Assembly: GCA_016872605.1 (NCBI GenBank)
Contig: VGZI01000001.1
Coordinates: 1-64,000, forward strand
DNA: 64,000 nt
Reading direction: 5' to 3'
Source of the DNA: Planctomycetota bacterium
GTDB lineage: Bacteria > Planctomycetota > Planctomycetia > Gemmatales > Gemmataceae
The translations under genes and the position numbers were made by a program. This document shows positions 19,439-62,198 of the stretch, in pieces. Position 1 is the stretch's first letter, and the number at the start of each line of letters is the position of its first letter. Under the pieces are notes generated by a model, which worked only from the letters and a program-made list of their open reading frames with translations, ran no database searches and was not told the DNA's origin.

Positions 19439-19537
19439 CCCCCTCCCCCTCGTGGGAGAGGGTTGGGGTGGTGGGGCCGGGCTCGCCGGTGTGCCATACC
19501 CCCCACCCCGGCCCTCCCACACAAGGGGGGGAGGGAG
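19439..19537. repeat. Inverted repeat of CCCTC..GGGAGAGGG-TGGGG type
   Basis: ccccctccccctcgtgggagagggttggggtggtgggg ... ccccccaccccggccctcccacacaagggggggaggg. Confidence 0.7.
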
Positions 19538-19552
19538 CAGGACGGGCTTCGC

Positions 19553-19615
19553 ATTTAGCCGCTCGCCTTTGGCGAGCGCGGGGGGGTCGCGCTCGCCAAA
19601 GGCGAGCGGCTAAAC
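19553..19615. repeat. Palindrome TTTAGCCGCTCGCCTTTGGCGAGCG; close relative lies inside selB
   Basis: atttagccgctcgcctttggcgagcg...cgctcgccaaaggcgagcggctaaact. Confidence 0.85.
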
Positions 19616-27832: not shown

Positions 27833-28864
27833 ATGCCATTCGATGTTGTCACCTTCGGCGAAGCGATGATTCGTCTGAGCCCGCCCAATTTCATGCGCTT
27901 CGAACAATCGCCAACGCTGGACATGAAAGTCGGCGGCGCGGAGCTCAACACCGCGGTCGGGTTGGCGAGGCTTGGCCATTCCGCCGCCTGGGTGTCCCGG
28001 CTGACCAACAATCCGCTCGGAAAACTGATCGCCAACAAGGCGCGCGAAGCCGGCGTATCGAGCGAGCACATCGTCTGGACGAATGACGATCGCGTCGGCG
28101 TTTATTTCCTCGAGTTCGGCGCCGCTCCGCGTGCTTCGAGCGTCATCTACGACCGCAAAGGCGCCGCCATCGCCAACATCAAGCCCGGCATGGTTCCCTG
28201 GGCGAACGTTTTCGCCGGCACGAAATGGTTCCATGTCACCGGCATCACGCCGGGCCTGAGCGCGTCGGCCGCCGAAGTCACCAAGGAGGCTCTGATCGCC
28301 GCCAAGGCCGCCGGCGTTCGCACCAGCATCGACCTGAACTACCGCGTCAAGCTTTGGACTCCAGCCGAGGCCGGCAAGTGCATGGCCGAGCTGATGCAGT
28401 ACTGCGACGTGCTGATCACGACCGAAGAGGACATCGAACGAGTCTTCGGCATCAAGGGGAAGAACTACGAAGAAGCTGCCGACCTGACGGCGAAGAAGTA
28501 CAACCTCAAGATCGTCGCCATTACGCTTCGTGAGAATCCGCTGGTCTGGAAGAACTCGTGGACGGCGATGGCTTACCGATCCCCCTTCGCCCCTTGGGGG
28601 AGAGGGGTTGGGGGTGAGGGGAATGCGGCGCAGATCCTGCGCACCAAGACCTACGAGGTCGAGATCGTCGACCGCCTCGGCGCCGGCGACTCCTTCGCCG
28701 CCGGCTTCATCCACGGGATGCTCGAAGGCGACTTGCAACGTTCCCTCGACTTCGGCGTCGCCATGAGCGCCCTGAAACACTCGATCCCCGGCGACTTCGC
28801 CTGGGTCACGCGCGACGAAGTCGAAGCGATGCTCAAGGGCGGGGGGTTGCGGATTAGCCGATGA
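27833..28864 (+). CDS. PfkB-family carbohydrate kinase (2-keto-3-deoxygluconate kinase-like)
   Basis: VVTFGEAMIRLSPP...VGGAELNTAVGLARLG; DRLGAGDSFAAGFIHGML. Confidence 0.92.
   Translation: MPFDVVTFGEAMIRLSPPNFMRFEQSPTLDMKVGGAELNTAVGLARLGHSAAWVSRLTNNPLGKLIANKAREAGVSSEHIVWTNDDRVGVYFLEFGAAPRASSVIYDRKGAAIANIKPGMVPWANVFAGTKWFHVTGITPGLSASAAEVTKEALIAAKAAGVRTSIDLNYRVKLWTPAEAGKCMAELMQYCDVLITTEEDIERVFGIKGKNYEEAADLTAKKYNLKIVAITLRENPLVWKNSWTAMAYRSPFAPWGRGVGGEGNAAQILRTKTYEVEIVDRLGAGDSFAAGFIHGMLEGDLQRSLDFGVAMSALKHSIPGDFAWVTRDEVEAMLKGGGLRISR
28581..28621 (+). repeat. Inverted repeat lying in frame in the PfkB kinase gene
   Basis: cccccttcgccccttgggggagaggggttgggggtgagggg, translated SPFAPWGRGVGGEG. Confidence 0.85.
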
Positions 28865-59431: not shown

Positions 59432-59514
59432 GGCCAGGTGGTGGAATAGCAGACACGCAGCTCTCAGAAGGCTGTGCCCACCGTGGCGTGAGGGTGCAAG
59501 TCCCTCCCTGGCTA
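59432..59514 (+). tRNA. tRNA-Leu(CAG)
   Basis: class II fold; acceptor ggccagg/cctggct, loop ctCAGaa, T-arm gaggg-tgcaagt-ccctc. Confidence 0.9.
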
Positions 59515-59518
59515 CTTT

Positions 59519-59589
59519 TCCGGGGTCGTCTAACGGTAGGACGGCGGGCTTTGAACTCGCAAACGTTGGCTCGACACCAACCCCCGGAA
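59519..59589 (+). tRNA. tRNA-Gln(TTG)
   Basis: acceptor tccgggg/ccccgga, AC stem gcggg-ctTTGaa-ctcgc, T-arm gttgg-ctcgaca-ccaac. Confidence 0.9.
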
Positions 59590-59655
59590 TTCCCGTTTGC
59601 GGCTTCGCGCTCGCACCGCGCCATGCAGTCACATCGCCGCAAGCGTCGGCTCGAT

Positions 59656-59729
59656 ATCCCCGGGGTGTGGCGGATGCACGCCGCCCTGCGAAGGCGGAGG
59701 TTATGCAGGTTCGACTCCTGCCGGGGATA
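59656..59729 (+). tRNA. tRNA-like, predicted Arg(GCG), atypical core
   Basis: acceptor atccccg/cggggat, AC stem ccgcc-ctGCGaa-ggcgg, T-arm gcagg-ttcgact-cctgc; G at positions 8 and 14. Confidence 0.7.
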
Positions 59730-59740
59730 CTCTTCCATGC

Positions 59741-59813
59741 GCCGGCGAAGCTCAATCGGCCGAGCACCGTTCTCGTAAAACGGCGAGTGTGGGTTCGATT
59801 CCCACCGCTGGCT
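59741..59813 (+). tRNA. tRNA-Thr(CGT)
   Basis: acceptor gccggcg/cgctggc, AC stem ccgtt-ctCGTaa-aacgg, T-arm gtggg-ttcgatt-cccac. Confidence 0.9.
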
Positions 59814-59852
59814 TTTTCTGAATCAGTGTGCGCGAATGTGCAGCAACTGATC

Positions 59853-59949
59853 GTAGACATCACGCTCCGCGTGATGGTTGGGCAGTACCTCTCGGTTCGG
59901 CGCGACGTTACTCGGGCTGCCCTTCATCACGCGGAGCGTGATCCCTACG
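59853..59949. repeat. REP-like inverted pair (GTAGACATCACGCTCCGCGTGATG family)
   Basis: gtagacatcacgctccgcgtgatg ... catcacgcggagcgtgatccctac. Confidence 0.75.
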
Positions 59950-60191
59950 ATCTTGCAGCCGAATCGCTCGCGGATATATAGCGGCGAGCCGAGCGGCGTC
60001 AGCCGCCGGGTTATGGTTCTACGTTGGCCTTTCGGAATCCACGAAGAGCATAAGATGACAGAGGCCAGAAGTCAGAGATCAGAGGTCAGCGTCGAACTGC
60101 GCATCCAGTCACTGGCGTCACGTGGCCCTTTTGACTTCTGGTCTTTGATTTCTGACTTCTGACCTCTGACCTCTGTCCTTCGAGCTTCACC

Positions 60192-62198
60192 ATGCCTCGC
60201 GATCTCATCCTCGGCACTGCAGGCCATATCGACCATGGCAAAACGTCGCTCGTCAAAGCCCTCACCGGCATCGACTGCGACCGACTGCCCGAAGAAAAAG
60301 CTCGTGGCATCACCATCGACATCGGTTTCGCCACCCTTGAACTCCCCTCGCCCTCCGGAAGAGGGGCTGGGGGTGAGGGTTATCGCCTGGGCATCGTTGA
60401 TGTCCCGGGCCACGAACGCTTTGTCAAGAACATGCTCGCCGGCGCCACCGGCATCGATCTCGTCGTTCTCATCATCGCCGCCGACGACTCGATCATGCCA
60501 CAAACCCGCGAGCATCTCGAAATCCTCAAGCTGCTCGGCATTCGCCACGGCGTTATCGCGATGACAAAATGCGACCTCGTCGATGAGACCACCCAGGAAG
60601 TCGTCGAGCTCGAAATCCGGGATCTCGTCCAGGGCAGCTTTCTCGATAACGCGCCGATCATCCGCACCAGCGCTCACACGGGAAGGGGCATCGAGGAGCT
60701 GAAAACCGCCATCGCCGCGACATGCGATTCGTTTAGCCACTCGCCTTCGGCGAGCGAGCCCGCACTCGGCGAAGGCGAGCGGCTAAACGCTTGGTTCCGC
60801 TTGCCCATCGATCGCTCCTTTGTCGTGCAAGGGCACGGGACGGTAGTCACCGGCTCGGTGCAGAGCGGCAGCGTCAAGGTCGGCGACGAAGTCGAATGGC
60901 TGCCGAGCGGCCGAGCCGTCCGCGTGCGTTCGCTGCAAACGCACGACCAGCCCGTCGACGAAGTGCATCGTGGGATGCGCGCGGCCGTCAATCTCGCCGG
61001 CGTCGATCACAAGGACGTGGTGCGCGGGCAAGAGATCGCCACGCCGGGATACCTCAAGCCGTCGCGCGTCGTCACGGTGCGCTTGCACTGCTTGCGCGAG
61101 ATGAAACGGCCCATCAAGCATCGCCTGCCGGTGCGTTTTCACGTCGGCACGTCCGAGATCATGGGAACGGTGTCGCTGCTCGATTGCGACACCGTTGACC
61201 CAGGCGGCTGGGGATTAGCCCAGCTTTTTCTCGACGATCCCGCGACGACCACCTGGGGCCAGCCGTTCGTCATCCGTGGCTCCTCGGCGACATTGACGAT
61301 CGGCGGGGGGCAGGTGTTGCAGCCGGTCGCCAAGAAAATTCGCCGGCGCCATCTGGAAACACTCGAGCGCGTCGAAAAACTCTGGACCGGCGACGCCAAG
61401 GAACGCGCCCTTGCCGTCGCCTGGTTCGGCGGATTCGCCGGCTTCACTCAGGCCGACCTCGTGCGCGGCGCCAACCTGGCCCCCGATCAGGCGACTCACG
61501 TCATCCAGCAATTGCGCGACGAACATCGCCTCGTCACCGTCACCTTTCATGGCGGGCGCCAGGCGATCCTGCATGCCGACGTTATCAGTGAGCTTGACGA
61601 ACGCATTCTCACTGCCCTCGGCAAGATGCACGAAGAATCCCCGCTCATGACCTCGCACGATCGGAAGAAGGTCCAGGCCCAGCTCGATTACATCGGCGAC
61701 GACGCCCTTGTCCATGCCGAGGTCGATCGGCTTATCAAGATGAAGAAGATCGTGGGCGATTTGCGGCGCGTCGCGCGGGCCGACTTCAAGCCGAAGCTGA
61801 GCGCCAGCCTGCGCAAGCTCAAGGACAAGGTGGTCGAAGCGTACCACACTGCCGGTTTTCAGCCACCCGACCCAGCGAGCTTCGCAACCCAGGCGGGTGG
61901 AAATGCCGCCAGCCTCAAGGACCTATTCGATGTGTGTGTCGCCGAAGGCTTCCTGGTGCACATCGACGGCGATGTTTTTTTACACAATGAGATCGAAGCG
62001 GAGATGCGCAGGCGGGTGACGGAGCGATTGACATCAGGCCCCGGCGCGACGGTCGCGGAGATCCGCGACCTTTTGGGCACGACGCGCAAGTACGCCATCC
62101 CGTACTGCGAATATATCGACCGCATCGGCCTGACCAAGCGCGACGGCGACCTGCGCGTGTTGGCACGGACCACGATGGAGGAGCCGCGCACTCAGTAA
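60192..62198 (+). CDS. selB: Selenocysteine-specific elongation factor
   Basis: [81 protein letters not shown]-terminal winged-helix-type region. Confidence 0.93.
60342..60379 (+). repeat. Repeat lying in frame in selB G domain
   Basis: ctcccctcgccctccggaagaggggctgggggtgaggg. Confidence 0.85.
60730..60789 (+). repeat. Palindrome lying in frame in selB linker
   Basis: cgtttagccactcgccttcggcgagcgagcccgcactcggcgaaggcgagcggctaaacg. Confidence 0.9.

Follow-up and report, generated by a model that had tools for sequence, protein, structure and literature searches.

The G/C-rich intrastrand triplex motif (TM_ECO, or potential intrastrand triplex elements) was described by Holder et al. (2015, PMC4666352), after Hoyne et al. 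(2000). Escherichia coli K-12 contains 23 copies of it, which were reported to be always intergenic (PMC4666352). The intragenic GTAG/CGTC REPs are short palindromes that lie singly or as dyads in frame in conserved genes, where they account for ~20–30 amino acids (Di Nocera et al. 2013, PMC3733652). The uvrA gene of O. terrae holds two REP insertions, and in the recB genes of two Xanthomonas species roughly the same position is taken by different REPs (PMC3733652).

In the planctomycete studied here, two segments of selB are dispersed palindromic repeats that were very probably inserted during the history of the genus and retained because they kept the frame, presented a stop-free phase and fell into tolerant surface loops. 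They are probably translated without serving a dedicated function.

The selB gene and its two inserts

The window, i.e. the whole stretch of 64,000 nucleotides that was analysed, encodes the selenocysteine-specific elongation factor SelB at positions 60192 to 62198 (forward strand) in an ORF of 668 amino acids without internal stops. The protein matched TIGR00475 with 370.5 bits (cut-off 242) in a profile search, a tRNA-Sec was found in the same genome (72.9 bits) and the closest SelB orthologues reach 84% identity; its assignment as SelB is based on the family profile and on this selenocysteine system.

Two repeats lie in frame within this gene. The first, of the intrastrand-triplex motif type and hereafter family A, is an element of 38 bp (60342 to 60379, forward strand; nhmmer E = 1e-9). 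It reads CTCCCCTCGCCCTCCGGAAGAGGGGCTGGGGGTGAGGG, has a decayed stem with two mismatches and is inserted at the turn joining two G-domain strands (site A). The second, family B, is a REP-like dyad of 60 bp located at the linker between the G domain and domain II (site B; 60730 to 60789, forward strand; nhmmer E = 4e-13), an in-gene palindrome with a predicted hairpin of -44.3 kcal/mol. Coordinates, sequences and translations agree with the preliminary description of an open selB frame containing both segments. In an AlphaFold2 model built from a 31-sequence alignment (mean pLDDT 85.5), SelB retains the expected fold with both inserts in coil. Insert A is modelled as the coil of residues 52–63 between strands 45–51 and 64–70; at insert B, residues 183–196, which follow helix 167–181 and precede the first strand of domain II, have a pLDDT below 50. 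From this fold we infer that both inserts form surface loops.

The region upstream of selB is also rich in palindromes. One, at 60053 to 60178 just upstream of the gene, has arms of degenerate 7-bp units of the GTCAGAG type (fold -59.9 kcal/mol). Another, GATCGTAGACATCACGCTCCGCGTGATG...CATCACGCGGAGCGTGATCCCTACGATC, lies between a tRNA gene and selB (59849 to 59952; fold -67.3 kcal/mol), and hairpins resembling it are in frame in loci L106 and L124. Together with the two inserts, four palindromic elements are packed within 1 kb around the start of selB. A search of positions 59500 to 61000 against Rfam returned two tRNAs, all other matches being sub-threshold.

Repeat families and their host genes

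Copies were counted with nhmmer in a sample of 1.26 Mb of the genome, whose assembly is fragmented into 372 contigs. A home-made gene caller assigned 86% of the sample as coding. Part of it had been picked for known repeat matches, which inflates the copy density but should have little effect on the in-gene fraction. The sample contained 45 copies of family A and 34 of family B; the claim that both segments belong to genomic repeat families thus holds, with many further copies of each. In the whole genome, the triplex-type hairpin gave ~150 matches per strand versus 2 and 0 in the control, and the dyad core of family B gave 42 versus 0 in a reversed-pattern control.

The aligned copies of family A yield the consensus CTCCCCTCTCCC-TCC-GGGAGAGGGG-TT-GGGGGTGAGGG, which agrees with Table 1 of PMC4666352. 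It comprises a pyrimidine arm, a complementary purine arm and, after a short loop, a mirror-symmetric third purine strand. Judged by layout and letters, family A is a member of the G/C-rich intrastrand triplex motif. Fully inside called genes were 24 of the 45 copies in the sample. Since five of its six frames are open, encoding a flexible peptide rich in Pro, Ser and Gly, the triplex motif may behave as a protein-coding-compatible element. A second in-gene copy within the window (28583 to 28620, forward strand) is in frame (PFAPWGRGVGGEG) in a KDG-kinase-like gene (27833 to 28864) and corresponds to a gap in three relatives.

Outside genes the arrangement differs: inverted pairs of family A comprise 16 of the 21 copies outside genes versus 0 of the 24 inside, as expected if genes tolerate single short units only. 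Relatives of both selB repeats had been described side by side at 19439–19615 of the window. The part at 19554 to 19615 is indeed a full, intergenic copy of family B (E = 4e-17), whereas the adjoining inverted pair of triplex-type hairpins at 19440 to 19535 proved to be a merely divergent cousin of family A that misses an E-value of 0.01 with the selB-type model. Three other inverted pairs (L134, 3907–4002; L139, 11635–11731; L143, 17972–18070) are each part of a larger element; these elements resemble one another, have flanks in common (AGTCTTTTCCTC..., TAAATCAAGTCCTGCCGCTCGCC) and may represent a MITE.

The distribution of family A in Planctomycetota is patchy (18 of 149 genomes, strict pattern). 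In G205, from an unrelated planctomycete family, copies are covered by several long open frames, with a Pfam match in only one of four. Cyanobacterial and proteobacterial plasmids likewise contain matching sequences, in two cases under an annotated DNA methyltransferase. In the matches H5 and H10, on plasmids of Pseudanabaena galeata, the triplex motif lies under an annotated DNA methyltransferase gene, a possible in-gene cyanobacterial copy.

Family B is dispersed and mostly extragenic, with 34 two-hairpin dyads in 1.26 Mb, as is characteristic of the inverted hairpin pairs of REP/BIME repeats. Neither a GTAG nor a CGTC tag is present at its stem end; its ends are GTTTAGCC...GGCTAAAC. In the sample 33 of the 34 copies were outside genes, the sole in-gene copy being that in selB. 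Only one phase in three is open, and selB holds this stop-free phase. The different shares of in-gene copies (24/45 for A versus 1/34 for B; Fisher P = 6e-7) are in part due to the open frames of the two families, yet frame alone, which predicts a 2.5-fold difference, falls short of the approximately 18-fold difference seen.

The hosts of family A include LeuS, ValS, TrpC, PurL, NuoG, a UvrD helicase, a LeuA-like synthase, AtuA, a TrmJ-like methylase and several DUF1553 proteins. All 20 in-gene copies with two scorable coding flanks lay on one strand and in one frame, a result partly built in because the gene caller requires an open frame. The informative half is that none of the 21 copies outside genes in the sample had coding sequence on both flanks, since a frame-breaking copy within a gene would have appeared there. 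Both results bear on the idea that the segments remain untranslated, because they are excised at the RNA level or bypassed by the ribosome, like the coding gap of T4 gene 60 or the mitochondrial byp elements. Ribosome skipping usually requires landing signals. Hairpins within otherwise conserved genes would fit such a process, but it would make frame and stops irrelevant; with the scorable in-gene copies in frame and no coding-flanked copies outside genes, we consider it very unlikely. As dispersed repeats retained in frame, the selB inserts are one case of a genome-wide pattern.

This pattern was also apparent without family models, when hairpins within genes numbered 15 versus 2 after codon shuffling and 11 versus 0 at a stricter score. 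A GC-rich genome and a fragmented MAG could raise the suspicion of chance-like low-complexity loop expansions of one lineage, or of assembly artefacts. Given these counts, the E-values of the selB copies (1e-9 and 4e-13) and independent assemblies of relatives in which the same loops are filled, such an explanation is extremely improbable. Chance similarity in particular was ruled out by the reversed-pattern and codon-shuffled controls and by the relatives.

When the CAGAGCCTGAAGCGTTAGCGAAG hairpins found inside LeuS and PurL are added to family A, these two genes (L087, 12089 to 15037; L140, 17943 to 20000) each hold two in-frame palindromes of different families, like selB. The two families initially highlighted in one GTPase are therefore both present and less remarkable than they had seemed: the sample contains three double-hit genes (SelB, LeuS and PurL) versus 0.93 expected (P = 0.06), roughly as the insert load predicts, and a special status of SelB was rejected.

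Loop contents in related genomes

About 120 SelB sequences were examined in two partly overlapping sets, one of 53 sequences (family and genus) and one of 78 named loci representing many phyla. In nearly all of them a turn of two residues occupies site A and the linker at site B is short; both selB segments aligned as gaps there, as the preliminary description had anticipated. Distant orthologues do not carry the inserted residues either: both sites are short turns in the SelBs of Desulfobacterota, Acidobacteriota, Nitrospinota, Brocadia and others, as well as in the solved structures 5lzb (E. coli-type factor) and 4zu9.

Closer relatives fill the same two loops with different sequences. Site A contains family A in G000, G041 and G004, the last belonging to another genus, and a different dyad, GTTAGCCGGACGCGC..GCGCGTCCGGCTAAC, in G209. 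The GTTAGCCGGACGCGC family is itself a dispersed repeat, as indicated by 176 matches within the genome of G209. At site B, G000 and G041 carry family B, G013 and G054 an AT-rich palindrome whose arms consist of heptamers, G211 a palindrome of TTCATCC heptamers and G017 a reversed copy of family A; L238, the locus of a Gemmata-like MAG, has ~45 extra residues there (PPTPSPKKGGGERG...FLGDGVGGRG). The SelB of the sister species G210 has no insert. Among the relatives, the G-domain loop accommodates at least two hairpin families and the linker between the G domain and domain II about five; a hairpin was predicted for every alternative insert folded (all except that of L238). Within the genus, the SelB tree has poor resolution, and the presence of A and B in both G000 and G041 may reflect common inheritance or separate gains. 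In the heptamer class, degenerate tandem units of 7 bp (ATTTCAA, TTCATCC and the like) make up the palindrome arms; members of this class are found in frame in SelB and PurL (G013, G211 and G004).

Orthologues were compared for 14 of the 24 family A host genes (selB and 13 others), the LeuS, TrmJ and DMFA2-like cases being less clean. In the 13 hosts besides selB, relatives were mostly gapped at the insert, and several had a different insert at that place. In PurL, G000 has family A in forward orientation, G041 an apparent reverse copy and G004 a heptamer palindrome, whereas the gene of G013 has no insert. Family A in the LeuA-like synthase of this genome contrasts with the GTTAGCCGGACGCGC family in G041, and family A in ValS with another dyad in G041. 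In this planctomycete and its close relatives, repeat DNA appears to supply extra surface loops in many essential genes, sometimes from different families per loop depending on the species.

The reuse of the same loops, together with the essential translation genes among the hosts and the persistence of strong mRNA hairpins (-44 kcal/mol for the B copy), could also suggest that the inserts are functional and that peptide loops or mRNA hairpins regulate the enzymes, e.g. by translation pausing or as interaction sites. However, sister species fill one loop with unrelated sequences that encode different peptides or, in G210, with none; the hosts span unrelated pathways, the stem of the selB family A copy has decayed, and the tolerance of the loops by itself accounts for the recurrence. 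A regulatory function is hence unlikely.

Proposed origin and relation to known systems

Y1/RAYT-type transposase genes are present in the genome, with eight Y1_Tnp loci. At none of the eight did family A or B flank the transposase gene; one family A copy lies ~1.2 kb from a weak Y1 match (L084). Palindromes with GTAG ends adjoin at least two Y1/RAYT-type genes (L081 and L086), and the one near the L081 transposase is similar to a hairpin that lies within an ORF in L101. Inspection by eye of the compared sites showed no target-site duplication.

With no transposase linked to A or B and no target-site duplication seen, the palindromes might be non-mobile and originate locally, through template switching or through hairpin-templated synthesis at quasi-palindromes, their likeness reflecting a sequence preference. 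The heptamer-arm palindromes resemble slippage products, and Holder et al. tie the triplex motif to local instability (PMC4666352). This origin would suit the heptamer class better than A, B or the GTTAGCCGGACGCGC-type dyads, and on the whole it seems improbable, because the ~60 nearly identical bases that family B copies share at unrelated loci and the 176 GTTAGCCGGACGCGC matches in G209 require copying from a source.

Dispersal of mobile repeats would instead proceed as follows. A putative hairpin-recognising enzyme, presumably a transposase acting in trans on the hairpins, would copy short palindromes to many sites, and purifying selection would then eliminate the insertions that break genes. 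The surviving inserts would be translated as extra loops, probably nearly neutral and without a dedicated function, and recurrence at the same loop would reflect the tolerance of that loop. A more far-reaching interpretation, which we put forward tentatively and hold to be somewhat short of an even chance, is that certain surface loops of essential enzymes in this lineage are recurrent landing sites which unrelated palindrome families fill, empty and refill, that the evolution of such loops is mainly driven by mobile DNA, and that the triplex motif is coding-compatible through its five open frames.

The dispersal of mobile repeats into coding genes would carry the Rickettsia-type idea of selfish DNA in proteins to a free-living phylum, with ~30 in-gene palindromes per 1.26 Mb, and would place the intrastrand-triplex motif inside coding genes. 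Sister species with a different insert or none at one loop would offer natural replicates for testing the effects of loops on essential translation enzymes. For annotation, insert peptides depress profile scores and can mimic sequencing errors.

Family A matches the triplex motif in layout and almost letter for letter, CCCTCTCCC-loop-GGGAGAGGG-2 or 3 nt-GGGGTGAGGG, and both form inverted pairs between genes. While the E. coli copies are intergenic, more than half of the sampled family A copies are single units in frame in genes (24/45), a departure from a property that was reported for one species and is not a structural criterion. Compared with the GTAG/CGTC REPs, A and B have no stem-end tag, organism and hosts differ, and in a single genus one loop is shared by several unrelated families. 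Rickettsia palindromic elements, too, are selfish palindromic DNA kept in frame across many protein genes, to which they contribute a peptide. They are longer than the inserts described here, which belong to several families, some much shorter (38 bp), in an unrelated phylum. The likeness to them that had been proposed holds for the way of working, as the inserts lie in frame in conserved genes and are absent from orthologues, but does not extend to membership. The Y1/RAYT-type genes with their GTAG-ended palindromes are reminiscent of RAYT/REPIN systems, whereas families A and B appear to be orphans, with none of the eight loci flanked by them. Clear precedents thus exist in intragenic REPs and Rickettsia palindromic elements; new here are the phylum, the use of the triplex motif as coding sequence and the occurrence of several unrelated families per loop in one genus.
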